DNA of 64,000 nucleotides from Pseudoflavitalea sp. G-6-1-2 (lineage in GTDB: Bacteria; Bacteroidota; Bacteroidia; Chitinophagales; Chitinophagaceae), in the NCBI RefSeq assembly GCF_012927185.1, contig NZ_JABBGB010000001.1, positions 1,426,001-1,490,000 on the forward strand. The letters run 5' to 3'. The notes beneath the pieces are model-generated. The model worked only from the letters and a program-made list of their open reading frames with translations, had not been told where the DNA came from and did no database searches. Positions within the stretch are counted from its first letter, which is position 1, and every line of letters starts with the position of its first letter. Of the stretch, positions 45,734 to 61,314 are shown piece by piece. Made by a program: the position numbers and the translations under genes.

Positions 45734-45742
45734 TTATCCACA
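45734..45742 (+). promoter_or_regulatory. DnaA-box-like sequence upstream of nrdJ
   Basis: TTATCCACA is identical to the strongest Escherichia coli DnaA box. A weaker relative, AAATCCACA, lies at 45685-45693. They are 96 and 145 bp upstream of the nrdJ ATG. Confidence 0.4.
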
Positions 45743-45837
45743 TGCTGTGCATATTTCCAATCTTGAAATTTCACATTCAAAAGATATTTTCGTTTTCCTC
45801 CTTCACTATTTAATTTATTGATCTAATTTCTAACCTT

Positions 45838-48800
45838 ATGACTAAAAAGCAATCTGCCAGAGGTCTGCAGTTCAGTCGCCGCTTCACCGCCGAAGACAAG
45901 AGCGTGTTCGAACTGTTTGAGTATGATTACCGTACCTCCATAATCCGTAATCCAAGCGGAGAAGTGGTGTTTGAAATGAACAATGTAGAGGTACCAAAAC
46001 AGTGGTCGCAGATTGCAACAGATATTCTCGCCCAGAAGTATTTCCGCAAAGCAGGTGTTCCACAGGCCGACGGTTCCACAGGCCGCGAAACATCCATTAA
46101 ACAGGTTGCCCATCGTATGGCCAACTGCTGGAGAGTATGGGGCGAACGCAATGGATACTTCGCTTCTGAAAAAGACGCACAGATATTTTATGAAGAGCTG
46201 GTGTATTGCATCCTCAACCAAAGCTGCACACCCAACTCACCCCAGTGGTTCAATACCGGCCTCTACGAGAGCTATGGCATCAAAGGCAAACCACAGGGCC
46301 ACTACTTTGTAGATGCGCAGGACGGAAAGCTGAAGAAATCAACTTCCGCTTATGAACGCCCACAGCCTCATGCCTGCTTTATCCTCTCCGTAGATGATGA
46401 TCTGGTGAACGAAGGCGGTATCATGGACCTGTGGATGCGCGAAGCCCGCATCTTCAAATACGGCAGCGGCGTAGGAACCAATTTCTCCCATATCCGCGGA
46501 GAAGGAGAAAAACTCAGTGGTGGCGGTACTTCCAGCGGCCTCATGAGCTTCCTCAAAATCGGCGACCGCGCAGCAGGTGCCATCAAGTCCGGAGGCACTA
46601 CCCGCCGCGCAGCGAAAATGGTCTGCCTCGATCTCGATCACCCCGAAGTGCTCGATTTCATCAACTGGAAAATGGAAGAAGAGAAAAAAGTAGGAGCCCT
46701 CATCGCCGCCGGTTACCCCAGCGATTATGAAGGCGAAGCATACCGCACCGTAAGCGGACAAAACTCCAACAACTCCGTTCGCATTCCCAACGAGTTCTTC
46801 ACCAAACTGGAGAACGACGAAGACTGGGAACTCAAAGCTCGCACAGACGGCCGCGTAATGAAACGCCTGCCTGCCCGTGAAGTCTGGAATCAGATCGCTT
46901 ACGCCGCATGGCGTTGCGCCGATCCCGGTACACAGTACGATACCACTATCAATGAGTGGCATACATCTCCCAAAGGTGGCCGCATCAATGCATCCAACCC
47001 TTGCAGCGAGTATATGTTCCTCGACAATACAGCCTGCAACCTGGCATCTGCCAACCTCCGCAAATTCTACGACGAGAAAACAAACACCTTCGATGTGGAA
47101 GGTTTTGAATATACCTGCCGCCTCTGGACTACCGTGCTGGAGATCTCCGTGCTGATGGCGCAGTTCCCTTCCAAAGAAGTGGCTCAGCTGAGCTACGATT
47201 ATCGTACTCTCGGTTTGGGTTATGCCAACCTCGGCTCCATGCTGATGGTAATGGGCATCGCATACGACAGTGAAGAAGCACGCGGCATCGCCGGCGCTAT
47301 CACTGCTATCATGACCGGCATCTCCTACAAAACATCTGCTGAACTGGCCGGCATTCTCGGACCCTTCGCACGTTATCAGGAAAATGCTGAAGATATGATG
47401 CGCGTGATGCGCAATCACCGCCTCGCTGCTTACGATGCAGATGAGTATGAAGGACTGAGTGTAAAACCTGTTGGCATCAAAGCCAAGTATTGTCCTGATT
47501 ATCTGCTCAAAGCCGCTACCAAGGCCTGGGACGAAGCAGTTCAACTCGGCGAGCAATACGGATACCGCAATGCGCAAACAACCGTGATCGCTCCCACCGG
47601 AACCATCGGTCTGGTGATGGATTGCGATACCACTGGTGTTGAACCGGATTTCGCACTGGTGAAATTCAAAAAATTGAGCGGTGGCGGTTACTTCAAAATC
47701 ATCAATCAGTCCGTTCCTGCTGCATTGAAAAATCTCGGATACAAATCGAAAGAGATCGATGCCATTGTGAAATATGCAGTAGGGGCCGGCAGCTTCGCTG
47801 GCGCTCCGCATATCAATCACCAAACGTTGAGCGAAAAGGGATTCATCGCCGAAGAGATCAAAAAACTCGATACTGCCGTTACATCCGCTTTCGAAATCGG
47901 ATTCGTATTCAACGTATACACGCTCGGCGAAGAATGTCTCCAGCGTCTCGGATTTAAACCCGAACAATATTTCAACTTCGAATGGAGCCTGCTCGAAGCG
48001 CTCGGCTTCACCGACGAAGAGATCGAAGCTGCCAACGATTACGTTTGCGGTACCATGACTGTTGAAGGTGCACCACATCTGAAAGCAGAACATCTCCCCG
48101 TATTCGATTGTGCCAACAAATGCGGCAACAAAGGTGAGCGCTACATCCATGCACACGGACATATCCGCATGATGGCAAGCGCACAACCTTTCCTCAGCGG
48201 CGCTATCTCGAAGACCATCAACCTTCCGAACGAAGCGAAGATCGAAGAGATCGCCGATGCTTACCTCATGAGCTGGCAACTGGGTCTCAAAGCCTGCGCA
48301 CTTTATCGCGACGGAAGCAAACTCAGTCAGCCACTCAGCAATAAGAGCGATAAGAAAAAGAAAACTGAGGATGATGCCACAGCAACAGCGGAACAACCCG
48401 CTGCAGAACAGCAGCCCGAAACACTGATTGTCGATCTCGGCAAACTCACTATTCAGGAACTGCTGGATGAAGTACAGAAACGTGTACAGGCATCTCCCGA
48501 TACCAAACTGAAAAGACAGCTGGCACGGATCGTAGAGCACAGAACATTGCCTGCGAAACGAAGAGGTTATACGCAGAAGGCCAAGATAAACGGACAAACC
48601 ATCTTCCTCCGAACCGGCGAATACAACGACGGGACAGTGGGTGAGATCTTCATCGATATGGCCAAAGAAGGAGCAACCATGCGCAGCATGCTGAACTGCT
48701 TCGCAATTGCAGTGTCCATCGGTCTGCAATACGGCGTGCCACTCGAAGAGTTTGTAGATAAGTTCGTGTTCACGCGCTTCGAACCGGCGGGCATGGTAGA

Positions 48801-49218
48801 TCACCCGAATATCAAGAGCACCACTTCCATTGTAGACTTCATTTTCCGTGCACTCGCATACGAATACCTCAAGCGTTCAGACCTGGTGCATGTGCTCGAC
48901 AGACCCGAAGTAATGAATACCGGCTCGGACGATTGGGACGAAATCCCCACTTCGCTTGAGTACGATAAAAAAACACCCGAATTGAGTGATGTGCGTGTAG
49001 TGGCTGCAAAATCCGGTCATAAAGCGCCGGATGCCGAAGCGAGTAAGACCAATCGTGCAACAGTGAAAGCAGAAACCGGAGGGCTCGATGCATTGAATGC
49101 AGCCGCGAAAAGCATGCAAAGCGATGCACCCGCCTGCAATACCTGCGGACATATCACCATCCGAAGCGGCACCTGCTACAAATGCCTGAACTGTGGCAAT
49201 AGCATGGGCTGCAGCTAA
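45838..49218 (+). CDS. nrdJ: Adenosylcobalamin-dependent ribonucleotide reductase (class II)
   Basis: The 1126-residue enzyme reduces ribonucleotides to deoxyribonucleotides using coenzyme B12. The barrel holds Cys180 (HACFILSVDDD), the radical motif NPCSE with Cys389 and Glu391, NTACNLASANL and PTGTIGLVMDCDTTG. After the reductase domain come an Ala/Gln/Pro/Glu-rich linker (about 835-870), a TSCPD-like region (FLRTGEYNDGTVGEIFIDMA) and a zinc-ribbon-like C-terminus (ACNTCGH then CYKCLNCGNSMGCS) whose cysteines probably reduce the active site. No cobalamin riboswitch was recognised upstream. Confidence 0.97.
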   Translation: MTKKQSARGLQFSRRFTAEDKSVFELFEYDYRTSIIRNPSGEVVFEMNNVEVPKQWSQIATDILAQKYFRKAGVPQADGSTGRETSIKQVAHRMANCWRVWGERNGYFASEKDAQIFYEELVYCILNQSCTPNSPQWFNTGLYESYGIKGKPQGHYFVDAQDGKLKKSTSAYERPQPHACFILSVDDDLVNEGGIMDLWMREARIFKYGSGVGTNFSHIRGEGEKLSGGGTSSGLMSFLKIGDRAAGAIKSGGTTRRAAKMVCLDLDHPEVLDFINWKMEEEKKVGALIAAGYPSDYEGEAYRTVSGQNSNNSVRIPNEFFTKLENDEDWELKARTDGRVMKRLPAREVWNQIAYAAWRCADPGTQYDTTINEWHTSPKGGRINASNPCSEYMFLDNTACNLASANLRKFYDEKTNTFDVEGFEYTCRLWTTVLEISVLMAQFPSKEVAQLSYDYRTLGLGYANLGSMLMVMGIAYDSEEARGIAGAITAIMTGISYKTSAELAGILGPFARYQENAEDMMRVMRNHRLAAYDADEYEGLSVKPVGIKAKYCPDYLLKAATKAWDEAVQLGEQYGYRNAQTTVIAPTGTIGLVMDCDTTGVEPDFALVKFKKLSGGGYFKIINQSVPAALKNLGYKSKEIDAIVKYAVGAGSFAGAPHINHQTLSEKGFIAEEIKKLDTAVTSAFEIGFVFNVYTLGEECLQRLGFKPEQYFNFEWSLLEALGFTDEEIEAANDYVCGTMTVEGAPHLKAEHLPVFDCANKCGNKGERYIHAHGHIRMMASAQPFLSGAISKTINLPNEAKIEEIADAYLMSWQLGLKACALYRDGSKLSQPLSNKSDKKKKTEDDATATAEQPAAEQQPETLIVDLGKLTIQELLDEVQKRVQASPDTKLKRQLARIVEHRTLPAKRRGYTQKAKINGQTIFLRTGEYNDGTVGEIFIDMAKEGATMRSMLNCFAIAVSIGLQYGVPLEEFVDKFVFTRFEPAGMVDHPNIKSTTSIVDFIFRALAYEYLKRSDLVHVLDRPEVMNTGSDDWDEIPTSLEYDKKTPELSDVRVVAAKSGHKAPDAEASKTNRATVKAETGGLDALNAAAKSMQSDAPACNTCGHITIRSGTCYKCLNCGNSMGCS

Positions 49219-49245
49219 AAATGTGTTTGATTTGATCTGAAATAG

Positions 49246-49278
49246 AACCCCGCTGGTAGTACTGGCGGGGTTATTTTT
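49246..49278 (+). terminator. Terminator of nrdJ
   Basis: Perfect 8-bp GC-rich stem (49246-49253 with 49265-49272), 11-nt loop, then ATTTTTA. Confidence 0.8.
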
Positions 49279-49308
49279 AATATTGAAAATCAGTCACTTA
49301 GCTGTGTT

Positions 49309-49422
49309 GAGCCGATTAATCCTCCTATTCGGCTCATGTTTTTCTGATAGTTGAGCTGAATAATCTTCTATTTGGCTCATAATTTAATTAAATTTGAGCC
49401 GAATAATAATCCTAATCGGCTC
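49309..49422 (+). promoter_or_regulatory. Three phased inverted repeats (operator array) before fic
   Basis: Three copies of a 26-27 bp inverted repeat lie at 49309-49335, 49353-49378 and 49396-49422. Each has arms of the form GAGCCGAWTA facing the reverse complement; the middle copy has GAGCTGAATA and a matching TTGGCTC arm. Start-to-start distances are 44 and 43 bp, about four helical turns, so all three would face the same side of the DNA. The last copy ends on the base before the fic ATG. Confidence 0.8.
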
Positions 49423-50526
49423 ATGACCTACAATTGGCAACAATCTACCTGGCCGGAATTCAGCTACAATCTGGCTGCTGTTGATGATGTGCTCCTTCAG
49501 TTTGCACAGGAAACAGGCGATGTGAGTGGCATGCTTCGTGCCCTGCCCGATTCCGCAGCACAGGAAACCATCACCGGATTGCTGATTGCTGAGGCCATCA
49601 AAACTTCTGCCATTGAAGGAGAGTTTTTCAGCAGACAGGATGTAGTGTCTTCCATCAGAAACAGATTGGGACTTAATTCCACTCCCGAAAATGTAAAAGA
49701 CAAAAAAGCGCAGGGAGCAGCCGAGCTTGTAGTGGATGTGCGCAACAGCTTTGCAGAACCACTAACTGAAGAAAAATTATTCGAGTGGCATAGGGCACTG
49801 CTGAAGCAAAGCCGGAATATCAATACGGGTGCATGGAGAAAAGATGAAGCGCCCATGCAGGTGATCTCGGGAACCATCGGAAGAGAAACCATTCATTTCG
49901 AAGCTCCGCCATCTGCACGTGTTCCCGAAGAAATGAAACGATTCATTCAGTGGTTCAACGACACTGCTCCGGGTGGCGCAAAAGAAATCAAAAAAGCTCC
50001 CGTTCGTTCTGCCATTGCGCATTTATATTTCGAGAGCATACATCCGTTTGAAGATGGCAATGGCCGTATCGGAAGGGCCATTGCGGAAAAGGCATTATCG
50101 CAAACCATCGGAAGGCCTGTGATACTGAGCCTTTCAGCCACCATCGAAAAAAATAAAAGCGATTATTATGCAGCGCTCTCCGCTGCACAGAAAACAAACG
50201 AGATCACTCACTGGCTTATCTATTTCACACAAACAGTATTGCAATCGCAGCGCGAAGCAAAACAAATGGTGGAGCTCACTTTGCAGAAAACGAAATTCTT
50301 CGACAAGCATAAAGAGCAGCTGAACGAGCGTCAGCTGAAAGCCATCAACAAAATGCTCGATGCACTTCCCGAAGGTTTCGATGGGGGAATGACGGCAAAG
50401 AAATACATGAGCATCACACGCGCCTCCAAAGCCACTGCCACCCGCGATTTGCAGGAGCTGACAGAAATGGGCGCGATTGTTTCAGAAGGAGGAGGAAGAA
50501 GCGTGCATTATAATCTCAATTTGTAA
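49423..50526 (+). CDS. Fic family protein with DUF4172 N-terminus and C-terminal winged helix
   Basis: The 367-residue protein has an N-terminal DUF4172-like segment (YNWQQSTWPEFSYN), an inhibitory helix with TSAIEGE (61-67) whose Glu would block ATP as in class II Fic proteins, the Fic core with catalytic HPFEDGNGRIGR (207-218), and a C-terminal helix-turn-helix/winged domain (about 310-367, MTAKKYMSITRASKATATRDL). Fic enzymes usually AMPylate a protein target. I start at ATG 49423, where the third inverted repeat ends; a longer frame begins at 49372 within the repeats. The DNA-binding C-terminus suggests self-regulation. Confidence 0.92.
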   Translation: MTYNWQQSTWPEFSYNLAAVDDVLLQFAQETGDVSGMLRALPDSAAQETITGLLIAEAIKTSAIEGEFFSRQDVVSSIRNRLGLNSTPENVKDKKAQGAAELVVDVRNSFAEPLTEEKLFEWHRALLKQSRNINTGAWRKDEAPMQVISGTIGRETIHFEAPPSARVPEEMKRFIQWFNDTAPGGAKEIKKAPVRSAIAHLYFESIHPFEDGNGRIGRAIAEKALSQTIGRPVILSLSATIEKNKSDYYAALSAAQKTNEITHWLIYFTQTVLQSQREAKQMVELTLQKTKFFDKHKEQLNERQLKAINKMLDALPEGFDGGMTAKKYMSITRASKATATRDLQELTEMGAIVSEGGGRSVHYNLNL

Positions 50527-50535
50527 ATACTCCTT

Positions 50536-51270
50536 ATGACCCCACTTGATCAATTTAAGATCTTCGCCGGAAAAGAATACCAGAACGAAGATGGAGAGTC
50601 CCATCGTGTGAAAGTTGAACCAGGATTTACTGAAGATGAAATTGAGGACCTGGCGCAAATTTTTCCTGAAATGCGCATTCCGGACGACATCATGGAATTG
50701 ATGAAATATGCTTCCGGTTTTAAATTTGATTTCTTTGAACCTTTTTCCTTTAACACAATCGGGTGGTTTGGTTTAGAAAATATTTTCCCTGCACAGGTGC
50801 AGCTTACCGGAGATGGGTTAGGTAACTTCTGGATAATAGACATCAAACAAAATGGAGATTGGGGAGAAGTGTTTTTTGCCTGCCACGACCCGGCAGTAAT
50901 GGTGAAGCAAGCTGATAATCTCACCGAGTTTCTGCAACAGCTACAGGAGTATGGCGAAAAACATGAGCATTCTGTATTTCACCGGATTTATGAAGAGGAA
51001 AGGTTTAACGCCTGGGAGCAACCTGATGCAGGTCTCATCGATCTGGAGGTTGCGCGAAATTCCAATGATCCCGCACTGAAGCAGTTTTCACTAATCCTTC
51101 CGGAAGGTTGCAAAATTGCCGACTTGCGAAAAGAATCAAACGGATCTGGATTTTATTGGGGTATCAGAGGCTTTGATTTAGACAATGTAATTCGTAATAA
51201 TGATGAGTTACTATGGGCCTTTGTTCCAACAGAAAAAAAGAGTTTCTGGAGCCGGCTCTTCGGCCGCTGA
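50536..51270 (+). CDS. SMI1/KNR4 (SUKH) family protein
   Basis: The 244-residue cytoplasmic protein shows the SUKH fold signs: helix IPDDIMELMKYASGFKF, a strand with GDGLGNFWIIDI and the VFFACHDPAVMVKQADNLTEFL stretch. SUKH proteins are often immunity proteins of toxin systems, but many are stand-alone. A C-terminal extension (about 165-244) has Trp/Phe-rich strands and ends SFWSRLFGR. It begins 9 bp after fic, so the two are probably cotranscribed. Confidence 0.8.
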   Translation: MTPLDQFKIFAGKEYQNEDGESHRVKVEPGFTEDEIEDLAQIFPEMRIPDDIMELMKYASGFKFDFFEPFSFNTIGWFGLENIFPAQVQLTGDGLGNFWIIDIKQNGDWGEVFFACHDPAVMVKQADNLTEFLQQLQEYGEKHEHSVFHRIYEEERFNAWEQPDAGLIDLEVARNSNDPALKQFSLILPEGCKIADLRKESNGSGFYWGIRGFDLDNVIRNNDELLWAFVPTEKKSFWSRLFGR

Positions 51271-51279
51271 TAAAATAAA

Positions 51280-51303
51280 AAAGGCCCGGAACTCCGGGCC
51301 TTT
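51280..51303. terminator. Terminator between the SUKH gene and the SGNH-like gene
   Basis: Perfect 10-bp stem (51280-51289 with 51294-51303), 4-nt loop, A tract before and T tract after, shared by convergent transcripts. Confidence 0.85.
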
Positions 51304-51320
51304 AATCGTATATCTAAACT

Positions 51321-52259
51321 TTACTTTGCCGACTGCTTAGTCAGATATTCTTCAATGAATTTTTTTGTTGCGAGCTCTGCTCCTTTCTTATTCAGGTGCC
51401 CCTTGGTTCCGAAATACTCGAACTGATAGTTCAGGTAATCTCCGAGATAATAAAACTCCATTCCCTGTTTTTTGCAATACGCATTGAAATCAGCCAGATG
51501 TTGTTTTGCCTGCGCTGATGTATCAGCTCTTCCCAATGGCAATGTGAACAACACAGGTGTGATCTGATTCTTTTTGCATACTTCCAGGATCTTTCTGAAA
51601 TACTTGTATTCAGTTTCGGACTTATCGAGCTGGAAATCGAGGCTCACCGTCATGGTATCGGTATTGTCGTAACGATTGCCGTAGTCGTATCGTGAGCCGG
51701 AAGCCGTATCGAAATCAGGCTTCATGAAATTGCCCCAGGTGTTGGAAAAGACATGCGGTCCCCAGTAATAATTGTACTCTGCATATTTCCACAGCGGCAT
51801 ATACCGGTCGAAATACCACTTGATGCCGTATGGTTTGTAAAAGCTGAAAACTTCATCATAGTTGAGATAAGGCATCATGCGGCCATCAGCGATATCTGCG
51901 AGTTCATTTGTGTTGATGGCACTGGGATTATCGATGCAGAAAAAGAACCGTTTTGTTTTGTTCTGATTGCGGTTGAAGAAAAGATCTGCCAGTACACTCT
52001 GTGTGCCGATGAGGCTGCCATCGAGTGAAATATTGATGCCTTTCTCGTGCAGTATGCTATCGGCCATCGCCACATCAAAACCAACATACGCGTGTGATGC
52101 TCCGAGCACCACATAATCGTATTGCTGCTTTTCTTTCTGCAATATCCATTGTGTTTTGTACTGCATGGTGCTTTTGTACCTGCTCTCCAGCCAATAATGC
52201 AGTACGAACGCTATCAGCGCAAGCGTAACTAATCCTGTGATTACATATTTAGGTCTCAT
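51321..52259 (-). CDS. Membrane-anchored SGNH/DltD-like protein
   Basis: The 312-residue protein has one N-terminal transmembrane anchor (about 5-22) and an extracytoplasmic domain with YVVLGASHAYVGFD (nucleophile candidate Ser55) and HLNKKGAELA near the C-terminus, the histidine of SGNH-type acyl-transfer enzymes. The usual DxxH has Thr (TKGH) in place of Asp, so a Ser-His dyad is possible. It lies 9 bp after the MBOAT gene. By analogy with DltD or AlgJ/AlgX it would pass an acyl group on to a glycan. Confidence 0.75.
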   Translation of the reverse strand: MRPKYVITGLVTLALIAFVLHYWLESRYKSTMQYKTQWILQKEKQQYDYVVLGASHAYVGFDVAMADSILHEKGINISLDGSLIGTQSVLADLFFNRNQNKTKRFFFCIDNPSAINTNELADIADGRMMPYLNYDEVFSFYKPYGIKWYFDRYMPLWKYAEYNYYWGPHVFSNTWGNFMKPDFDTASGSRYDYGNRYDNTDTMTVSLDFQLDKSETEYKYFRKILEVCKKNQITPVLFTLPLGRADTSAQAKQHLADFNAYCKKQGMEFYYLGDYLNYQFEYFGTKGHLNKKGAELATKKFIEEYLTKQSAK

Positions 52260-52268
52260 ACCGGTGGC

Positions 52269-53711
52269 TTAGAATTGAAAGTAAATAAAGCTCTGTGCAT
52301 TCTTGAACGATCCGAAGAAAACAAACAGCAGGAACATATATCCGAATACGGCATAGCGAAGGCCTACCGAGCTATCCAGTTTTTTGCTCCACTTTTCGTT
52401 TCTCCAGAATTTTTCAAACACCAGAAAATGCGCCAGCATCAATGCGCCTACCAGCAGTGAATAACGAAGCGCTGCGGTGAATGCCGGAAACTGATCGGGA
52501 AAGTTCTCGTAATTGAAAAGCCCTTTGATCACATTGAATGCTGTATGGAACGAATCTGCTCTGAAGAAGATCCAGACAAACTGCAGAAAGAGAAATACGA
52601 TCAGCTGACTCAATGTGTTGTTGAGCCAGACAGGCAGTTTCGAGAATGTTTTCTTTCTCCATTTCTTGGTCATGAACTCGTAGCTCATGGCGATGCCGTG
52701 CAGCACACCCCAGATGATGAAGGGCCAGCCCGCACCATGCCAGAGTCCGCTGATGAAGAAAGTGAAAACCAGTCCGAATACCACAGCCCATTTGCCCCAA
52801 TCGCGCCGATTGATCACAATCGGCGTATAGAGATAATCACTGAACCAGGTGCTCAGCGAAATATGCCATCTTCTCCAGTAATCGGTAATGGTCTTCGCCT
52901 GAAAAGGAAAATTGAAATTCTTCATCAGCGTGAAACCCATTACCCTTGCAGATCCCAGCGCAATGTCGGAGTACCCCGAGAAATCACAATAGATCTGGTA
53001 TGCGAAGAAGAAAGTTCCGATGAATACCCACACTGTGTTGTATCCGTAAGTGCCACTGTACATGGCATCTACCACAATGGACAACCTGTCTGCAATTACG
53101 ATCTTCTTGAATAGTCCCCATGCCATCAGACGCAGGCCACTCATCACACGATCATAATCCCAGGTGAATTTTTCATGGAACTGATGAAGCATGTTCTGCG
53201 GCCTTTCGATTGGCCCTGCCACCAGCTGTGGATAGAACATCACATACAGCGAATAAATTCCGAAATGCCTTTCTGCTTTCTGATTGCCACGATACACTTC
53301 GATGGTGTAGCTCATAGCCTGGAATGTGTGAAAGCTCAGACCGATTGGGAGAATGATATGCAGGTAAGGTATCTGATTGGTGTATCCAAAGAGATTGCAC
53401 AAACCTGTGATATTGTCGTTGATGAAATTGTAGTACTTGAATATTGCCAGCACGCCAATATTGGCAATGAGGCTCATTACCAGAAACCGTTTTCTGGCAG
53501 CCGGGGTTTTGGCAGATTCGATCCAGATCCCTGCATAATAATCTATCACAATGGTGAAGCCCAGGATCAGGATGTACTCTGGTTTAAAGAACATATAAAA
53601 GCCGCAGGATGCAATCAGCAACAGCAGCCACCTGAACTTATGCGGCAGACCGAAATACAGGGTAGTGACGAAAATGAAAAATATCAGGAACTCAATCGAA
53701 TTGAATAACAT
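52269..53711 (-). CDS. MBOAT family acyltransferase (AlgI/DltB-like)
   Basis: The 480-residue polytopic protein has about ten or eleven helices. It carries the MBOAT blocks HTFQAMSYTIEVYRG, YPQLVAGPIERPQNML, the FSGYSDIALGSARVMG and WHISLSTWFSDYLYTP segments, and the catalytic His in FFISGLWHGAGWPFIIWG. MBOAT proteins move acyl groups from a cytoplasmic carrier across the membrane. The acyl carrier protein gene lies 28 bp upstream. Confidence 0.93.
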   Translation of the reverse strand: MLFNSIEFLIFFIFVTTLYFGLPHKFRWLLLLIASCGFYMFFKPEYILILGFTIVIDYYAGIWIESAKTPAARKRFLVMSLIANIGVLAIFKYYNFINDNITGLCNLFGYTNQIPYLHIILPIGLSFHTFQAMSYTIEVYRGNQKAERHFGIYSLYVMFYPQLVAGPIERPQNMLHQFHEKFTWDYDRVMSGLRLMAWGLFKKIVIADRLSIVVDAMYSGTYGYNTVWVFIGTFFFAYQIYCDFSGYSDIALGSARVMGFTLMKNFNFPFQAKTITDYWRRWHISLSTWFSDYLYTPIVINRRDWGKWAVVFGLVFTFFISGLWHGAGWPFIIWGVLHGIAMSYEFMTKKWRKKTFSKLPVWLNNTLSQLIVFLFLQFVWIFFRADSFHTAFNVIKGLFNYENFPDQFPAFTAALRYSLLVGALMLAHFLVFEKFWRNEKWSKKLDSSVGLRYAVFGYMFLLFVFFGSFKNAQSFIYFQF

Positions 53712-53739
53712 TCATCCGGTTTATAAGGGTTTACAGAAA

Positions 53740-53985
53740 CTATGCACCGAGTTTGCTCTTCACAGCATTGGCCATATCTCCTACATTCTTCCAGCTCTGA
53801 ATCTCCGAAGCTGTGAACTTCACTTTGTAATGCTTCTCGATTGCCACCACCAGCTGAATATGATAAAGGCTGTCCCACTCTTCGATATCATTGGCAGTTG
53901 TTGCCTCGGTGAGTTTGATATCGCTGTTGTCAAGCACGTCGATAAATATTTCATTCAGCTGCTCCAAAATCTGTTGCTGTTCCAT
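53740..53985 (-). CDS. Acyl carrier protein, dedicated
   Basis: The 81-residue acidic protein has the four-helix ACP pattern and the phosphopantetheine site Ser39 in EEWDSLYHIQLV. The DSL motif in a WDSL context is that of specialised carriers rather than the fatty-acid AcpP. It starts 6 bp after the FkbH-like gene and precedes the MBOAT gene, which points to a private carrier for this operon. Confidence 0.93.
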   Translation of the reverse strand: MEQQQILEQLNEIFIDVLDNSDIKLTEATTANDIEEWDSLYHIQLVVAIEKHYKVKFTASEIQSWKNVGDMANAVKSKLGA

Positions 53986-53991
53986 TGTTGA

Positions 53992-55731
53992 TTATTTTCT
54001 TTTGATGTAAATGTTTTTATCGTAAGGGTAGTCAGCTACACTGATGGTGTAGTTGTTGGCTTCGGTGGTGGTGAACCCCAGTTTGGGATAATGCTCGCGC
54101 ACCAGTTCATTCTTTTTAGTAGGAAGATATTCTCCCGTTACCTCACTGAAGCCCTGTTCTTTTGCAAGATCGATGATGCTTTTAAGTGTAAGCAGCTCCA
54201 TGCCTCTTTTGAGTACACGGCAGCTCATGATCCAGCTGTCGATGAACAGCGTGTCCGCACTTTTCTTTTCAAGAATGATGAAGGCAATCAGGCCGTAATC
54301 TCCGTAGATATCTTTCAGCGAAAAAGATAACGTGAAATGATCGGGTGATTGTGCAATGCGCCTGATATCATCCTCCGTATATCTTACAGTGCGGAGGTTG
54401 AATTGATTGCTTCGCTGTGATAATTGCGCGATGCGCGGTATGGTGAAATTGTCGAATGGTTTTATCTCGCATTCCATGCCAAGGCTGGCGAGAAATTCTT
54501 CTTCATTGGCAAAGCTTTTCTGAAGAATATTTCTGTTGGCTTCTTCCTGGTATTGTTTGGTGCGTTGCTCATCTTCTTCTGTGAAACTGGCTGTTTCAAA
54601 GAGGTTGAGCGTACGCAGGTAAGGCATGTATTCTGCAGGATCTTCGGGCAGTTCGGGAACGGTGATGTCGGGGATGTTTTGTTTCACCATTTCGCGCTCG
54701 AAAGGGTTGTCGTCGAGGAACACCATGGAGTCGAATCCAATATTGAGGATGCTCTGAATATGCCGGATATTGTCCACCTTGGTTTCCCAGTTGGCCACAA
54801 ACACGGCTATGTCGTCGAGTCTCAGCTTCATATCCGGATGACTGATGAATGGCTCTTTGGCAATGCTCTCCGTGTTCTTGCTGCAAACGGCGATGATGAT
54901 GCCGCGCTTCTTCAGCTCTTTTGCCCAGAGTTGCAGATCGGTGAAAGCCTTGCCCAGACCGAGATCTCCGATCTGAATGCCTTCGAGGCCATCATCTCCG
55001 ATGATGCCTCCCCAGGTGGTATTGTCGAGATCGAGGATCAGGCATTTTTTGAAGCTGCCTGCAATGGCCTGGATCACTTTATGCAGTTGCTCTGCCAGAT
55101 CGGGAAGTATATCGATGCTGAACACCATGTCTGCACTGATGTACATTTTGGCATCGCTGAATTGTGCGTATCCGCGTTGTGCCACCAGCGCCGCGAGATC
55201 TACCAGGAAGAGATTTTTTTCTTCCTGCGCCAGATCCATCAGGCCCATATTGAGTTTGCGCAGCTGATATAAAAATGAAGAAGGGGTTTTGGTGCTGAAG
55301 TTTCCGAACACTGCATCGTTGAGTTCAGGAAAAGTATTGAAGATCACACGGGCTTTCAGCTGGCTGCTGATCTGCTGGTACAGATTTTTCGCATAGGCTG
55401 TTTGGTTAGCTCCGAACTGACTTTTCTCTTCTCCGGACAGTGAATAATATTTCTTCAGCAGTTTTTCCGAGCTGCGGAGAATGATCACATAGTCCGGCTT
55501 GCTTTCATACAACTCGGAACCCGGATCGAACACCTGAAGGTCTATCTGATTGTAATCGGCTTCGAAAATATCATAGTGGATCCCTTCGGAAATGCCGAAT
55601 CCTTTGAGTGCCTGGTGAATAAATTGGGATGCTGAATCTGCAACGATAGCAACACGGATGGATTTCAATCCATCGACGGGCTTTTTGAGGTATTTCTTCA
55701 GCGCTATAAAACTCCGGTTATCAGGTGCCAT
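53992..55731 (-). CDS. FkbH-like HAD-IIIC protein with acyltransferase-like C-terminus
   Basis: The 579-residue protein has an N-terminal SGNH-like segment (about 25-210), a HAD-IIIC domain with LILDLDNTTWGGIIGDDG (nucleophile Asp234 and Asp236), VCSKNTESIA and VFLDDNPFEREMV, and a C-terminal GNAT-like domain (about 400-570) with QRSNQFNLRTVRYTEDDI. FkbH-type enzymes take a glyceryl unit from 1,3-bisphosphoglycerate, dephosphorylate it and load it onto an ACP. An ACP gene follows after 6 bp. Other HAD-IIIC proteins may load different hydroxyacyl groups. Confidence 0.88.
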   Translation of the reverse strand: MAPDNRSFIALKKYLKKPVDGLKSIRVAIVADSASQFIHQALKGFGISEGIHYDIFEADYNQIDLQVFDPGSELYESKPDYVIILRSSEKLLKKYYSLSGEEKSQFGANQTAYAKNLYQQISSQLKARVIFNTFPELNDAVFGNFSTKTPSSFLYQLRKLNMGLMDLAQEEKNLFLVDLAALVAQRGYAQFSDAKMYISADMVFSIDILPDLAEQLHKVIQAIAGSFKKCLILDLDNTTWGGIIGDDGLEGIQIGDLGLGKAFTDLQLWAKELKKRGIIIAVCSKNTESIAKEPFISHPDMKLRLDDIAVFVANWETKVDNIRHIQSILNIGFDSMVFLDDNPFEREMVKQNIPDITVPELPEDPAEYMPYLRTLNLFETASFTEEDEQRTKQYQEEANRNILQKSFANEEEFLASLGMECEIKPFDNFTIPRIAQLSQRSNQFNLRTVRYTEDDIRRIAQSPDHFTLSFSLKDIYGDYGLIAFIILEKKSADTLFIDSWIMSCRVLKRGMELLTLKSIIDLAKEQGFSEVTGEYLPTKKNELVREHYPKLGFTTTEANNYTISVADYPYDKNIYIKRK

Positions 55732-56075
55732 ATGCTATTGTTCAAATAATAAAACTCGATTATTTGTAATATCATCAGGAAGACCCATAAAGGATATTCT
55801 ATGCGCTAACTCAGAAGAGTGCTGAATATTGCAAGATTTAAGAGGCTGCCTGTGATTAGCATTTCATGGTATAGGAGAATAAACAATGGCTATTCTATAG
55901 GCTATCAGCAGGGTGCGAAGATAATGGATAAGATCACAAGGAACAAGAGGCGGTTTGAAATAGGCGGGTCAATGGGTAGTTTTACCTTTTTATCCGGCGG
56001 AGTTTCGGTTTTTCGCAATTGATTATTATTTTAAGTGCCTGATTAGACCTTTACGCAACCAAATTTCCGGACGGT
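55732..56075. other. Spacer between the FkbH operon and a small lipoprotein gene
   Basis: 344 bp that should hold the leftward promoter of the FkbH operon. A 67-codon frame at 55819-56022 has no recognisable features. No exact TAnnTTTG was found on either strand. Confidence 0.4.
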
Positions 56076-56198
56076 ATGAAAAAACTCACCCTGATGGCGC
56101 TCACGGCGCTGGTGATATTATTCGGCTCATGCAGCCGCTACATTACTACTTATGAAGCCGCCAATGGCAAAGCGAAGTGCGGCAAACTGCTACGATAA
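56076..56198 (+). CDS. Forty-residue lipoprotein
   Basis: The frame starts MKKLTLMALTALVILFGSC and ends KCGKLLR. Residues 1-18 form a lipoprotein signal with the lipobox Cys19, leaving a mature peptide of only about 22 residues with a second Cys and several basic residues (SRYITTYEAANGKAKCGK). It has a clear terminator of its own 13 bp after the stop. Similar tiny Cys-ending lipoproteins occur in Chitinophagaceae, but I know no function. Confidence 0.72.
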   Translation: MKKLTLMALTALVILFGSCSRYITTYEAANGKAKCGKLLR

Positions 56199-56211
56199 TC
56201 GTGCTTAAAAC

Positions 56212-56245
56212 AAAGCCGCTCCGAAAAAACGGAGCGGCTTTTTAT
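56212..56245. terminator. Terminator of the small lipoprotein gene
   Basis: Perfect 12-bp stem (56212-56223 with 56230-56241), 6-nt A loop, T tail on the plus strand. It also lies just beyond the convergent 802-residue gene. Confidence 0.88.
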
Positions 56246-56263
56246 TGAAATGTGTCGTAAGTC

Positions 56264-58672
56264 TTATTTTATTCTTCTTACAAAATCGCCCAGATAACTA
56301 CAGGTATTGATTGCCTCCTTAAAGAATGGAGTGGTATTATACTCTTTTGCCAGTGCTGTAAACCTCACCTTATTCGTCATGATCTTCTGCTCATGTTCTT
56401 TCTGCAGTTTGGAGTAAGTATCCCATTCCATGTTCCGTCCCCATTGCGGAACAGGGATTTGCTTCTGCTCACATTTAGCCACCATAAAGAGGCTGCGGGC
56501 TTTGAAGTTCTTATCCTTGCTCAGGTTGAATGCCTGGAGATAATGATCTCTCGATGAAAATACACCGTAGTATTCTTTCTCACCGGGTTTGAGACTTTTG
56601 GTGTCTGATGGTAAACCTTCTCCTCCGCCCCATCCGTATTGGGAGAGAATCCAGCTATTGCCCCAGTAGCTCATGCCATAGAGCCCCTTGGCGATTTCAT
56701 AGTGCAGCTGTGCCTGTTTTTCAGGATCAGTTGCTTTGGCCAGATCCTTCTCCAGTTGCATCATGCGCTGAGTGAACGTGAGCTTGGTGTATTTCTTTGT
56801 ATCCTGTTTGGTAGGAGCGTGCGTGTCTTCAATCAGATCTGCAAAAGGATTGCCGAGCAGATAAGTAGCGTAAGGCTCTTTGGTGTAGTAAGATGCCGGG
56901 ATCTTCGCAAACCATTTTTCTGCTTCTGCATATTTGAATTCGCGGAGCAGTGATGTGCCTGCAACATCATTCACATCGTCTTTGCTGAAAGTGTTATTGC
57001 TCACGATGAATTTCTCGAATGAATTCAGCTTGCTGCTGCTCATCAGATTGATCAGTTGCTGAACCTGCTCAGAAGAGAACTCTGTGCGGAGTGTGCCTAC
57101 TGTGTTGGAATAGAATCCCCATCCTTCATGGATATATTTCTGCTGAATCCATTCGGCTGTACCCTGACAAAGCAGGAACTTAACCTGATCTGCATTCTTC
57201 AGCGCTTTGTAGCGCGGAGCGAGTACGTCGTTGAATACACGGCGATAGAATTGTGCATATTCATTGCGTGCTTCTGCTTTCTTCTGCAGCCATTGCAATG
57301 ATGGATAGATCTGCTCTTCGAATTTCTGATCGATGGTTGGTTGTGTATTGATGGTGAGCAACAGATTGGTCATGCCCCACTGATCCTGCAATTCTGATGA
57401 GAGGTTGAGCTTCTTTGTATCGTCCAGTTGCTTGCGGGCTGATGCAAAATCTCCGCTGATCAGAAATGCATGTGCTGCAGCTACTGAAAGCAGATTTTTA
57501 TTGGCGCCTTTTTGTTTGGATGCATCCTGACAGAATGCTCCGAACTCTTTGGCTTCCGCGCGCCACTGCGCAACTTCCTGTGAGTTCTCACTGATGTTGG
57601 TAGAGTTGAGCGTTACTTCCTCTGAAGACTTCCCTCCCGGAGCGAAGTAATTGTCTTCAAGTTTATTCACTTCACGGATCAGGAGTATTTCAAACATCGG
57701 TGCAGACGGTGCCAGCTTCTGAATTGTTTTGAGCGTATTCAGTTCTGGTTTGAAACTGCCGAGTGCGAAGAGGCCGAGCAGGTTGGCTTTTTCAAGATCG
57801 TTTTTGCAGAGAGCGAGTACCGCTTTGCGATTGGCTTCGTCGAATCTTTTTACAGACCAGTCGAAGCTCATGTAGTTGGATATGCGCTTCACCTGTTCTT
57901 TGCTGAAAAGCTGACTGAAGATATAGGCGGCTTCGTTCTTCTGGCCGGTATGCATCAGAGCGCCGGCTTTGAGTGAAAGACCGAGATCCTGCAGAATGCT
58001 TTTTGTTGGGTTTGGTTTGATCTGCTGATCGTATGCCTGAATGGCTTCGTCATAGCGGCCTGCATAATGTGCGAGGCGGGCTACCTGATAGGCCAGACGC
58101 AGTTTTATGAAATCATTTTTGGCTACTGCATAGAGCTGATTGCCGTTCTTCTGCAGTTTGGCCATTTTATCTTTGTCGCGCTGAATAGGCTCCCATGCAG
58201 TCCAGTCGCCGGTTACATTCGGTTCCACCTGTTTGGCATACATGATGTAGCCGAGCGCTTCCAGATCTTTGTTCTGCATGAAGTAATTGGTCATGCCATT
58301 GTTCTTCACAGAATCGGGAATGCTGAGCGGTTGATTTTTTTCGAGGTGGAAGTAGAGATTGGAGAGATCCTTTCTCGCAAACTTCACCACAAAATCGTTG
58401 GCATCTTTTTTAGAGAAGCTGTTGTTGCCATAGCCTACCCACTCAGCAGAAGTAACGTCGGATGTTTTTACCGGTTCTTCTTCACGATACAGAAACTGCA
58501 CGTTGGTGTAGTAGAATGGCTGATAGCCGGGAACATTGGTATTGTCCTTGGCAAAGAAACTCACATAATAATCATACGGGTCGTCGTCTCCGCCTGCGCA
58601 TCCGATGATGTTGTACGGAAAGCACAACGCAGCGGCATTAATGCAGGCTACTAAGAATAGTTTGCAGTTCAT
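56264..58672 (-). CDS. Large lipoprotein with helical repeats, unknown function
   Basis: The 802-residue product starts with a signal peptide ending in the lipobox NIIGC (Cys25) followed by an acidic GGDDDP stretch. The body is mostly helical with TPR-like segments (LAHYAGRYDEAIQAYDQQ, GALMHTGQKNEAAYIF, REFKYAEAEKWFAKIP, FKARSLFMVAKCEQKQ). I do not recognise a named family. Its start overlaps the end of the preceding gene by 35 bp, so the two are translationally linked and probably work together in the envelope. Confidence 0.85.
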   Translation of the reverse strand: MNCKLFLVACINAAALCFPYNIIGCAGGDDDPYDYYVSFFAKDNTNVPGYQPFYYTNVQFLYREEEPVKTSDVTSAEWVGYGNNSFSKKDANDFVVKFARKDLSNLYFHLEKNQPLSIPDSVKNNGMTNYFMQNKDLEALGYIMYAKQVEPNVTGDWTAWEPIQRDKDKMAKLQKNGNQLYAVAKNDFIKLRLAYQVARLAHYAGRYDEAIQAYDQQIKPNPTKSILQDLGLSLKAGALMHTGQKNEAAYIFSQLFSKEQVKRISNYMSFDWSVKRFDEANRKAVLALCKNDLEKANLLGLFALGSFKPELNTLKTIQKLAPSAPMFEILLIREVNKLEDNYFAPGGKSSEEVTLNSTNISENSQEVAQWRAEAKEFGAFCQDASKQKGANKNLLSVAAAHAFLISGDFASARKQLDDTKKLNLSSELQDQWGMTNLLLTINTQPTIDQKFEEQIYPSLQWLQKKAEARNEYAQFYRRVFNDVLAPRYKALKNADQVKFLLCQGTAEWIQQKYIHEGWGFYSNTVGTLRTEFSSEQVQQLINLMSSSKLNSFEKFIVSNNTFSKDDVNDVAGTSLLREFKYAEAEKWFAKIPASYYTKEPYATYLLGNPFADLIEDTHAPTKQDTKKYTKLTFTQRMMQLEKDLAKATDPEKQAQLHYEIAKGLYGMSYWGNSWILSQYGWGGGEGLPSDTKSLKPGEKEYYGVFSSRDHYLQAFNLSKDKNFKARSLFMVAKCEQKQIPVPQWGRNMEWDTYSKLQKEHEQKIMTNKVRFTALAKEYNTTPFFKEAINTCSYLGDFVRRIK

Positions 58673-59711
58673 AGGTTGTGTAATTATTCAGCGTTAATGA
58701 ATCTAAATGGTATAAAGAAACGGTCAGCTTTTCATTCCTGATCTTAGGTTTGAGTATGCGGGCCGACTTCATAATATCGTCAAAGTTACTATCTTCCTGT
58801 CTTATCAGATCATCTTTGTGCAGCTCATAACCCAATAGTAAAGTGTCTTTGAGCAGGCGATACGTGTTGCCTTTCCTGTTAGTCAATCCCGGTACATCGA
58901 GGGCAGCTGTGGGGAGGTCCTGAATGAGGCCTGTGTATTTATCCTGCCTGAATAAAACCTTCCAGTTGAAAAGAGGGAAAGCTACGTCTAACTCAAGCGG
59001 GTAGCGGTTTAGAGAGGATGTGTACAACTCCAGTTCTTTCGGATCGAGAATGGAATTGGTGGTTGCCGGATCTTTCAGATTTCCCATATTGTAACACATC
59101 AGCAATCCGCGGTCAACGGGTGGAACACCTGTTCTGTGCATGTATTTGCATTGGTATAGTCTGATGGTTGCCGAGAGTGTCTTTCCCTGAATCCAGGGAT
59201 ATTGTTTGATGTGTTGCAGCAGCAGAAAATATTTGTCGCGGGTTTGTGCAGTCCAGTCACAATCAATCTGAACCTCACTGACCGGCGCGTCGGGCAATTG
59301 CTCTTTTGCGGTATTCTCGATCAGGGCAGCTAACCGGGAAGCCAGTAAAACTGTTGTACCGGAATCCAGGTACCGGAGCGTTTCGTTGGTGATGAAAACC
59401 GTGGGGATGATCCTGATCTGGTTTTCAGATAGGAACTGTCTGGACTTTGTTCCGAACTGAACTTTCGCAACCGGACCAGCCTCTTTCCGCTGCGGATCCC
59501 AAACCACATCGAAGAATTTCACATAGAGTTTCTGACTGAGTTTCTTCAGGGTTGCTTCTTCTGTACCATTGAAAACGGCCTGCGATTTCCAGTAATAAAA
59601 GGCAGGTTCGATGGTATGCGGCTTGTTCTCTTCGCCACAGCCGGCTGCGAAAAGGGCTATCAGACCAGCGAAAGCGGTCAGAATGAAGCATTTATTTTTC
59701 CGGAGATTCAT
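58638..59711 (-). CDS. Lipoprotein with TIM-barrel-like features, unknown function
   Basis: The 357-residue product begins at ATG 59709-59711 with a lipoprotein signal (lipobox LFAAGC); the frame extends to 59828 but that part overlaps the divergent gene. The mature domain shows the strand-helix order of a glycoside-hydrolase-like barrel: KLYVKFFDVVW, RIIPTVFITNE, VSEVQIDCDWTAQTRDKYF, TLSATIRLYQ, LLMCYNMGN, LELDVAFPLFNW. Asp in QIDCDW and Glu residues could be catalytic. It is followed by the 802-residue lipoprotein gene. Confidence 0.82.
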   Translation of the reverse strand: MNLRKNKCFILTAFAGLIALFAAGCGEENKPHTIEPAFYYWKSQAVFNGTEEATLKKLSQKLYVKFFDVVWDPQRKEAGPVAKVQFGTKSRQFLSENQIRIIPTVFITNETLRYLDSGTTVLLASRLAALIENTAKEQLPDAPVSEVQIDCDWTAQTRDKYFLLLQHIKQYPWIQGKTLSATIRLYQCKYMHRTGVPPVDRGLLMCYNMGNLKDPATTNSILDPKELELYTSSLNRYPLELDVAFPLFNWKVLFRQDKYTGLIQDLPTAALDVPGLTNRKGNTYRLLKDTLLLGYELHKDDLIRQEDSNFDDIMKSARILKPKIRNEKLTVSLYHLDSLTLNNYTTYELQTILSSLH

Positions 59712-59717
59712 ATCGCC

Positions 59718-59725
59718 CAAAAGTA
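59718..59725 (-). promoter_or_regulatory. -7 promoter element of the lipoprotein gene, leaderless arrangement
   Basis: On the minus strand the bases read TACTTTTG, an exact TAnnTTTG match, only 6 bp upstream of the ATG. Transcription would begin at or next to the start codon. Confidence 0.5.
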
Positions 59726-59782
59726 AATTGTTTTTTGGGTATGGTTTCCTCTCCTTACTTTTACGGCCCTTAAAGTGTGCTA

Positions 59783-60259
59783 ATGACGGTTCAATTTGGC
59801 TATGATAAGAAGCAGGTGATACAGGCATTACGGTATCATTTCCTTTCGAGACCCGAAATAAAGGTACTCCTGATCATCATCAATGTATTTGCGATCCTTT
59901 CCGCGGTACTTTTCGCCTATAAGATTATTCAGCCGATTTCATTTCTGATGTTCTCGCTGCTCTGGTTTGTACTGATGCTGGTGATCTGGCGCATCCTTCC
60001 GGCAAGCATCTACAAAAAATCGAGCACGTTCAAGGACCATTTCATTATGCACTTCGATGAGAGTATCGTAACGCTCGAAACCGAAAGAGGGTCTAAGGAC
60101 TGGAGCTGGAACCAATTCAGCCGTTTCGTGGAGAGCCCGTATTTCTTCCATCTTTACTTCGATGCACGCTCTTTCTTCATCATTCCGAAAGAAGCATTCA
60201 CCGACATTACAGAATTGCAGCAGGCACGCAACTGGATGAAGAACAAGATCGGCAAGTAA
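59783..60259 (+). CDS. YcxB-like membrane protein
   Basis: The 158-residue protein has two transmembrane helices (about 28-45 and 52-72) between a short N-terminal strand region and a C-terminal domain with DESIVTLETERGSKDWSWNQFSRFVESPYFFHLYF and FFIIPKEAF, the pattern of YcxB-like proteins. Function unknown. ATG 59783 is used; a GTG two codons upstream (59777) is possible. It is divergent from the lipoprotein gene and ends 8 bp from gldB. Confidence 0.8.
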   Translation: MTVQFGYDKKQVIQALRYHFLSRPEIKVLLIIINVFAILSAVLFAYKIIQPISFLMFSLLWFVLMLVIWRILPASIYKKSSTFKDHFIMHFDESIVTLETERGSKDWSWNQFSRFVESPYFFHLYFDARSFFIIPKEAFTDITELQQARNWMKNKIGK

Positions 60260-60267
60260 GCCTTTCT

Positions 60268-61314
60268 CTATCCGGGTTTGTATTTGCTTTCTTCAAAGAT
60301 TTTTCTGGGATCTGTCTGCAGCAATTGTTGCAGCGTGAGATCTTTGTGCTTGCTCAGGTATTTTCTGATGATCTGTCTGCCTACCCACATGCCTACAAAT
60401 CCGGGTGAGTTTTTGCCCATGGCCTGCGTGAATGGCGCATCTGAAACATATTCGCGGATCAGGTCCGGTTCTGTTTTGTAGAGCAGGCTATTGGTGAGAA
60501 AGAAGTTCCAGATATCGGCTTCATTGGCTTCGCAGAATTTCAGCTGATTGGCTGTAAAGCCCGTGAGCAGTGAATCTGCCGTGTAAGGGAGAAACATTTC
60601 GAGAGTGTGCAGTCTTTTCCCTTTTTCGATCATCAGCGATACCAGATCGAGGCTGCCGCCTTTTTCGGGATAGATATCATCGATGATGTTTTTCATGCTG
60701 TTCACTGAAATGTATTCGGGTGCGAACCTGCGTGAGATATAGGAGGGGTATAATTGCTGACCGAGTTCCGACTGATACATGGAGAAATTGCTGCCGAGGT
60801 GCAATTGCAGGCCAATGGCCAATCCATCCGGCGTAATCACATCTCCGTATTTTCCCAATGCTGCATCGAATGAAGCATCCATCGGCCCGATGAAAGTGAT
60901 CACCTTTTCAGGCAGCCGGTAATCGGGAAAATAGTATCGCACATACTGCAATCCTTTCCTGATTTCTTTTTCGTAAGGAGAAAAGTCTTTGAATAATTTA
61001 TCTGCTGAGTCTTTGATGGGGCGATAATCTTTGATGAACCTTTTCATGGCTGCCATAGGATCAGCGGGAGCGCCGCCGGCATCCTGAGAACCGATCCCCA
61101 GAATATGATTGGCGAAATCGCTGGTGAATCCGCCATACTTTCCGGTCATTTCATGCATCAGCACGGGCAGACGGTTCGTGTCTGCAGCGAAGAAATCCTG
61201 TTCGTACCGCTGTACGCTGAGGTTTATTTTGATATCGGAAACATCGGGGGCTTTCTTATCCTTACAGGCGTAGAGGCCCGTAGCCAAAAGCAGTACAATA
61301 GCGGTTTTCTTCAT
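60268..61314 (-). CDS. gldB: Gliding motility lipoprotein GldB
   Basis: The 348-residue product has a lipoprotein signal with Cys17 (LYACKDKK) and the GldB pattern: VQRYEQDFFAAD near the N-terminus, FAGDPMAAMKRF-like stretch, PDYRLPEKVITFIGPMDASFDA, DGLAIGLQLHLGSNFSMY, RRFAPEYISVNSMKNIIDDIYP and FTQAMGKNSPGFVGMWVGRQII. GldB is needed for gliding in Flavobacterium and is also kept in non-gliding relatives. The start is ATG 61314. Confidence 0.93.
   Translation of the reverse strand: MKKTAIVLLLATGLYACKDKKAPDVSDIKINLSVQRYEQDFFAADTNRLPVLMHEMTGKYGGFTSDFANHILGIGSQDAGGAPADPMAAMKRFIKDYRPIKDSADKLFKDFSPYEKEIRKGLQYVRYYFPDYRLPEKVITFIGPMDASFDAALGKYGDVITPDGLAIGLQLHLGSNFSMYQSELGQQLYPSYISRRFAPEYISVNSMKNIIDDIYPEKGGSLDLVSLMIEKGKRLHTLEMFLPYTADSLLTGFTANQLKFCEANEADIWNFFLTNSLLYKTEPDLIREYVSDAPFTQAMGKNSPGFVGMWVGRQIIRKYLSKHKDLTLQQLLQTDPRKIFEESKYKPG

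Follow-up and report, generated by a model that had tools for sequence, protein, structure and literature searches.

A candidate carrier-fed acylation system in Pseudoflavitalea: an operon with an FkbH-family loader, a private acyl carrier protein, an MBOAT and an SGNH-type protein

The DNA analysed here is a stretch of 64,000 nucleotides from Pseudoflavitalea sp. G-6-1-2 (contig NZ_JABBGB010000001.1, positions 1,426,001 to 1,490,000 of the forward strand), which we call the window at its full length. At window positions 51321-55731, four genes read leftward and encode, in this order, an FkbH-family loader, an acyl carrier protein (ACP), a membrane-bound O-acyltransferase (MBOAT) and an SGNH-type protein. 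The gaps between them are 6, 28 and 9 bp in the list of open reading frames (ORFs). We discuss this operon as a candidate acylation system. Its features are as follows:

53992-55731, minus strand: FkbH-family loader of 579 amino acids (FkbH_N, HAD-IIIC and a C-terminal part), from the ORF, family models and an alignment
55018-55032, minus strand: DLDNT motif, FkbH residues 234-238, coordinates computed from the ORF
53740-53985, minus strand: private ACP of 81 amino acids, WDSLYH motif with Ser39, from the ORF, Pfam and a PDB match
52269-53711, minus strand: DltB-like MBOAT acyltransferase of 480 amino acids, His325, from the ORF, Pfam and a DltB alignment
52272-52289, minus strand: FIYFQF, the C-terminal FxYxxF acyl-shuttle motif of the MBOAT, motif from PMC12148441
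51321-52259, minus strand: membrane-anchored protein of probable SGNH/DltD fold, 312 amino acids, Ser55, His288, Thr in place of the usual DxxH aspartate
51280-51303, minus strand: terminator-like hairpin of 10 pairs, then TTTATTTTAT; such sites are not above shuffles in this region

An earlier note on this DNA, made from the sequence alone, had described four leftward genes with these gaps and had singled out the DLDNT motif, Ser39 of the ACP, a catalytic His in the MBOAT, and Ser55 and the His of HLNKKG in a membrane-anchored SGNH-like protein. The ORF list bears out the layout, and the residues were all confirmed. D234, D236 and T238 of FkbH are invariant, and Ser39 lies in EEWDSLYHIQ. The MBOAT histidine is H325 of SGLWHG, which aligns to GFWHG of DltB. 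In an alignment of 32 SGNH proteins, S55 (in GAS) and H288 (in HLNKKG) are invariant.

The loader scores 298.8 bits against TIGR01686 (cut-off 146.65) and 222.2 bits against FkbH_N of Pfam (cut-off 27), and fkbH is present in a single copy in the genome. Ten sequences, including two Streptomyces FkbHs and excluding locus L065, were aligned; C230, D234, D236, T238, S284, K318, D340 and C504 are kept in the window protein. One of the two Streptomyces genes (L112) adjoins genes for an ACP, an acyl-CoA dehydrogenase and a 3-hydroxyacyl-CoA dehydrogenase, which is a methoxymalonyl-type cassette. The only PDB match is 3slr (BF1531), named uncharacterized. For OzmB, a glyceryl-cysteine intermediate has reportedly been observed. 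Family membership is the one pointer to glyceryl as the probable cargo: passages in PMC7489565 and PMC8949500 assign FkbH to loading glyceryl from 1,3-bisphosphoglycerate.

The ACP matches PP-binding of Pfam with 24.9 bits (cut-off 20.8). In overall sequence it is most similar to the PDB entry 2lml (E 3.5e-20, the next match at 2.9e-4), and the two share the WDSLxH motif. We take 2lml to be GmACP3. The title of the GmACP3 paper proposes a role in lipopolysaccharide biosynthesis.

The MBOAT matches PF03062 with 87.5 bits (cut-off 27) and stays below the DltB equivalog model (TIGR04091, 140.9 bits, cut-off 375). Its C-terminus, FIYFQF, has the form of the FxYxxF shuttle motif of PatA and DltX. 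Among 73 MBOATs with 440 or more amino acids, from the window and the loci fetched by then, 71 have such a C-terminus; the two exceptions are L006, which reads YYYFKF, and L015, which lies at a contig end. As described in parts of PMC12148441, PatA takes acetyl from CoA and places it on the tyrosine of its own C-terminal hexapeptide, and PatB is able to use acetyl-tyrosine such as that of PatA. In Dlt, the same account places the motif on the separate DltX and names a carrier protein as the donor. The genome encodes a second MBOAT (L001, G000:C2:718524), which has FIYFRF at its C-terminus and a gene of 370 amino acids behind it, with no FkbH relative nearby. As the genome has no FkbH relative besides that of the operon, this second pair may be an ordinary CoA-fed one.

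The SGNH protein matches no Pfam family over the cut-off. Scanning 32 relatives gave weak links only (DUF1574 in ten, GDSL in two, AlgX in one), and the best PDB profile match is AlgX at E 0.018. Its AlphaFold model (pLDDT 79.3, pTM 0.82) opens with a helix at residues 3-30, in agreement with the membrane anchor of the earlier note. In a Foldseek search with the model, ranks 1-10 are all DltD chains (E 1.3e-5 to 2.9e-4), and PatB appears from rank 21.

We propose, with a probability of roughly 0.6, that the operon encodes a system for carrier-fed acylation across the membrane, in which FkbH loads D-glyceryl on the ACP, and the MBOAT and the SGNH protein pass it to an exported polymer. Gene content, motifs, the fold match and the conservation of the set are direct observations; the chemistry, the cargo and the acceptor are all inferred. 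By analogy with its family, FkbH would take the acyl group of 1,3-bisphosphoglycerate, shed the phosphate and leave a D-glyceryl thioester on the private ACP. No adenylating enzyme would be needed, because the activation energy would come from the acyl phosphate. At the cytoplasmic face, the MBOAT would accept glyceryl-ACP and, with His325, move the group to the tyrosine of its own FIYFQF, as suggested by PatA and by DltB/DltX. Ser55 of the SGNH protein would then receive the glyceryl and esterify a hydroxyl of the exported polymer, most likely a surface polysaccharide. That FkbH should replace DltA is proposed by analogy with nonribosomal peptide synthetase (NRPS) modules, where FkbH domains occupy the place of adenylation domains according to passages in PMC8949500.

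FkbH relatives were collected from a contig scan with peptide patterns of the window FkbH, and the best 80 of 98 were retained; because they were chosen by these patterns, this set leans to near kin. Within 6 kb of FkbH, an ACP is found in 72 of the 80 loci, an MBOAT in 67, an SGNH protein by profile in 58, and ACP and MBOAT together in 64. With 2 MBOAT genes in a genome of 6.1 Mb, a place picked at random would be within 6 kb of one in about 0.4% of cases, against the observed 67/80. A chance neighbourhood of ACP and MBOAT was rejected, as it recurs in 64/80 loci. In these 64 loci we examined 68 MBOATs. A partner of 240-430 amino acids lies close behind in 58 of them; 51 of these partners match the SGNH profile, and some (in L026, L030, L037, L041, L042 and L045) have a GDSF-type motif instead. 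The earlier note had called for a genome search for the four-gene order. FkbH-ACP-MBOAT-SGNH is kept in all four fetched genus-mates (L142-L145), a count that leaves out L146, where the contig ends just past fkbH, and G248, which was not fetched at length. An FkbH gene is present in 6/6 searched genomes of the same genus vs 4/30 from other genera of the family.

Among the loci outside the Bacteroidota is that of Clostridium tepidiprofundi (L017). The Rhodobacteraceae set reads ACP-FkbH-MBOAT-hypothetical-VOC, with an MBOAT ending in FIYFNF. In Tistrella, genes for an MBOAT (ending FIYAGF), an ACP, a methyltransferase and FkbH lie close together on two strands. The set on pSymB of Sinorhizobium meliloti reads VOC-MBOAT-409 amino acids-ACP-FkbH; the MBOAT ends in FLYQGF, the FkbH has no match to the MSCRV pattern, and the ACP reads WDSLSN, not WDSLxH. 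The three SGNH candidates of these sets have no Pfam match. In S. meliloti (L154:4227-5456, L084), the 409-amino-acid gene between MBOAT and ACP is annotated as a TonB-dependent receptor, a name at odds with both its length and its position; its product may be the SGNH partner. The FkbH relative of strain 1021 reads as two ORFs in the record. A further FkbH relative (33.8% identity, 96% query coverage) is encoded at 71476-73149 of MT835480.1, close to the end of this 75-kb record, which comes from human faeces and is labelled Bacteriophage sp. That region could be host DNA.

Adenylating enzymes were searched with a profile whose seed was a single NRPS adenylation domain. The earlier note had seen no adenylation enzyme in the operon, and no adenylation-family ORF was found in window positions 43001-64000 either; a polyketide synthase (PKS)/NRPS cluster was rejected on this ground. 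A separate adenylating enzyme in all related operons was one of the findings that the note had named as telling against its proposal. Such a gene occurs in 1/80 related loci (L044), on the opposite strand, more than 5 kb from fkbH and outside the operon. Outside the 80, the profile matched L111, L112, L120, L123, L124 and L127; L123 and L127, which are FkbH loci of sampled Bacteroidota, have large adenylation-family ORFs and no MBOAT.

What is new here is that the relatives insert either a VOC gene or a MaoC gene, mostly with a short-chain dehydrogenase/reductase (SDR), even beside FkbHs that are 98% identical. Among the 64 loci with ACP and MBOAT, 17 contain VOC, 15 contain MaoC and 32 contain none of these (L061, where the match is a 70-amino-acid fragment on the opposite strand, was not counted as VOC; L028 was counted as MaoC). 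None of the 64 has both VOC and MaoC (Fisher p 0.0065, with no correction for relatedness). There is an exception outside the 64: L058 (5534-7388), which has no MBOAT nearby, holds VOC, MaoC and an SDR gene between its FkbH and ACP genes. All 17 VOC genes are on the FkbH strand; 16 start within 27 bp of the FkbH stop, and 10 overlap it when the first start codon is used. An SDR accompanies MaoC in 13 of the 15 loci, and the other two (L038, L055) have a split transketolase pair instead; L076 has MaoC, SDR and the split pair. This transketolase-type pair (277 and 321 amino acids) lies between MaoC and ACP at L038:10151-11942, as well as in L055 and L076. The D-x-N-x-x-H motif of MaoC is kept in 15/15 and YxxxK of the SDR in 13/13. 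For three of three scanned VOC proteins, the closest NCBIfam model is methylmalonyl-CoA epimerase, with scores below its cut-off, and the one searched against PDB has nearest entries named lactoylglutathione lyase and glyoxalase-I. H7, E54, H78 and E127 of VOC are invariant in seven sequences.

The loader and carrier change little between these forms. L037 (MaoC and SDR) and L042 (VOC) have FkbHs that are 98% identical over 579 residues, with 94% identity for ACP and 81% for MBOAT. L020 (none) and L024 (MaoC and SDR) are 91%, 98% and 88% identical, respectively. A constant loader with changing tailoring would be expected if FkbH always supplied glyceryl-ACP. As a tentative idea, which we hold at somewhat less than even odds, one glyceryl-ACP loader may serve a palette of three-carbon hydroxyacids on surface polymers, with lineages swapping small genes behind a near-unchanged loader. 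The bare set, as in the window, is predicted to transfer D-glyceryl. With VOC acting by enolisation at the alpha-carbon, the inverted product would be L-glyceryl, the form known from gellan; alternatively, VOC could make lactyl-ACP from the hemithioacetal of methylglyoxal. With MaoC and SDR, pyruvyl-ACP and then lactyl-ACP would be formed. A dehydration-then-reduction series on glyceryl is reportedly known from the bryostatin starter, although no paper on it came up in the open-licence literature searched. The earlier note had considered a glyceryl or related hydroxyacyl cargo. This part needs amending, as the cargo is probably not identical in all relatives given the insertion of VOC or MaoC in 32/64. 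On a Paroceanicella plasmid (L147:5492-13526), genes for ACP, FkbH, a methyltransferase and VOC precede mprF (lysyl-phosphatidylglycerol flippase/synthetase); we would guess at a methylated glyceryl on lipid there.

Our best guess for the acceptor is a surface polysaccharide, with lipopolysaccharide, capsule, exopolysaccharide and peptidoglycan not told apart. According to parts of PMC4432689, the substituents of exopolysaccharides include glyceryl and lactyl, and L-glycerate in gellan is cited there from 1986. The earlier note had suggested a search of related loci for glycan neighbours. Relatives of GT2, GT4, Wzx or Wzc were found near 17/64 loci with ACP and MBOAT, a lower bound given the few seeds; L014 and L016 have GT2, GT4 and Wzc relatives, and L070 and L082 have Wzx and Wzc relatives and GT2. 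L120 adjoins sugar-nucleotide-type genes, as read by eye. In a Pfam search of 82 flanking proteins, hand-picked from 205 candidates, there were eight AT3, five GT2 and two GT61.

Several observations weigh against a glyceryl-transferring system of this kind. The same few seeds gave no GT2, GT4, Wzx or Wzc relative in window positions 43001-64000, again a lower bound, so the glycan neighbours of the earlier note are seen near relatives and not near the window operon. Against DltD, the SGNH model reaches low TM-scores (0.40-0.46, normalised by query length). At the position of the SGNH acid, the window protein and two near kin have Thr (across the 32, Asp in 22, Asn in five, Glu in one, Gly in one); lacking the usual aspartate, such proteins must employ a Ser-His dyad or another acid, or else have low activity. 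Among 247 evenly sampled Bacteroidota genomes, 23 gave an FkbH match, and in 19 it exceeded the cut-off; three weak matches (G101, G021 and the second of G140) were left out of the examination. Only 2/19, the window's own genome and L120, have an MBOAT within 6 kb (the stretches of L114 and L123 run off or fill their contig side), and an ACP of this type lies in 9/20 fetched stretches (18 over the cut-off, two just under). The MBOAT-linked form is thus a minority of FkbH uses, and FkbH-ACP is also employed in other ways. Further along the same strand, past three other genes, L120 has a second ACP and, at the end of the stretch, a 122-amino-acid adenylation-family fragment; this locus matters because it is MBOAT-linked. 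In L124, which has no MBOAT, a 454-amino-acid adenylation-family match follows immediately behind the ACP. On the FkbH tree (96 rows), the MBOAT label has to change 12 times. Given this number, and with several branches long and contig ends among the rows, we do not claim that the MBOAT link arose only once.

A rival reading has two independent systems side by side, in which MBOAT and SGNH O-acetylate a polymer from acetyl-CoA like PatAB and FkbH-ACP serves another transferase, for example on cytoplasmic sugars. In Niveispirillum, FkbH-ACP does stand beside a WcbI-type transferase with no MBOAT, a further point against our proposal; the pair of ACP and MBOAT is missing within 6 kb in 16/80 loci, some of them at contig ends; and no FkbH relative lies near the second MBOAT of the genome. 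We nevertheless regard two systems as distinctly improbable, because ACP and MBOAT recur in 64/80 loci, the order is kept in genus-mates and similar sets occur in other phyla.

It is unlikely, though less so, that the same machine works with another cargo, FkbH loading a different hydroxyacyl such as lactyl so that the surface ester is not glyceryl. Family membership is all that fixes the cargo, and the tailoring genes of relatives would alter it. The window is without such genes, however, its FkbH keeps the residues in common with that of the methoxymalonyl cassette, and the FkbH pathways in the portions of the literature examined all assign glyceryl. We give very little credence to a lipid or a small secreted metabolite as the acceptor. 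The lack of a glycan gene in window positions 43001-64000 would fit it, as would the lipopolysaccharide role in the title of the paper on the presumed GmACP3. Against it, MBOAT-SGNH pairs with the FxYxxF motif act on envelope polymers according to parts of PMC12148441, and there are the glycan-gene relatives near 17/64 loci. Transfer of D-glyceryl to an exported polymer remains our preferred reading.

As to the boundaries of the operon, a 10-pair hairpin with a T-rich tail lies at 51303-51280, 3' of the SGNH stop, and a 7-pair hairpin lies behind the upstream gene. These support one closed transcription unit, short of proof, since the hairpin scan found five terminator-like sites vs a mean of 4.8 in shuffles. 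Rfam gave no match over the gathering score within 45000-60500. The upstream gene (56264-58672) stops 532 bp ahead of the fkbH start. It encodes an 802-amino-acid TPR-like protein and is paired with a gene for a 396-amino-acid protein without Pfam match (56264-59828 together); the pair keeps its position in 4/4 fetched genus-mates, with only a short piece of the second gene in L142. Directly downstream (49372-51270) are a Fic/DUF4172 gene and a SUKH-1 gene, in the same position in L142 and L144 and not seen in L143 and L145. The downstream site looks variable, as these genes were found in only 2/4 genus-mates.

The titles and abstract openings of the open-licence literature searched describe no FkbH-MBOAT surface system and name no enzyme route attaching glyceryl or lactyl to exopolysaccharide. 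In the portions of the literature seen, FkbH and MBOAT co-occur in aeruginosin and suomilide peptides, where FkbH is within the NRPS and the MBOAT acylates a sugar. Term searches in parts of PMC2824669 and PMC9558356 gave no relevant match. The family offers a concrete route for attaching glyceryl or lactyl, one that would draw on an acyl phosphate of glycolysis instead of an adenylate. One glyceryl loader may feed interchangeable acyl forms, and a switchable acyl palette in relatives is possible.

Compared with the FkbH glyceryl-ACP modules of polyketide and NRPS pathways, the operon has the same FkbH and stand-alone ACP with invariant residues in common, whereas no PKS/NRPS gene adjoins it and its likely outlet is a membrane acyltransferase. 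With Dlt D-alanylation (DltA, C, B, D and X) it shares a carrier, a DltB-related MBOAT, the FxYxxF motif and, probably, an SGNH protein of DltD fold. It differs in having FkbH where Dlt has DltA, in its occurrence in Gram-negative Bacteroidota, and in an MBOAT and an ACP under the DltB and DltC model cut-offs (18.7 bits for the ACP against NF003464, cut-off 68, with other ACP models scoring higher). The shuttle is fused to the MBOAT, as its own C-terminus, whereas Dlt has the separate DltX; none was seen in the ORF list, beyond which no DltX search was made. A plain Dlt operon was rejected on the loader, the two cut-offs and the shuttle. The earlier note had proposed a Dlt-like machine with FkbH for DltA, which agrees with most tests run, except that the shuttle tyrosine is on the MBOAT itself, as in PatA. 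PatA-PatB and AlgI-AlgX O-acetylation has the same fused C-terminal FxYxxF and separate SGNH partner, but uses acyl-CoA and no carrier according to parts of PMC12148441, whereas the window operon includes a private ACP and its loader. It joins both halves, a Dlt-like carrier and a PatA-like fused shuttle. By membership the system is not Dlt, but we consider it likely to be Dlt-like in working, a variant of MBOAT-SGNH acylation with a glycolytic acyl phosphate as the likely energy source. The Discussion of PMC12148441 generalises that non-Dlt MBOAT/SGNH pathways are carrier-free, evidently through the use of acyl-CoA; the family described here departs from this generalisation.

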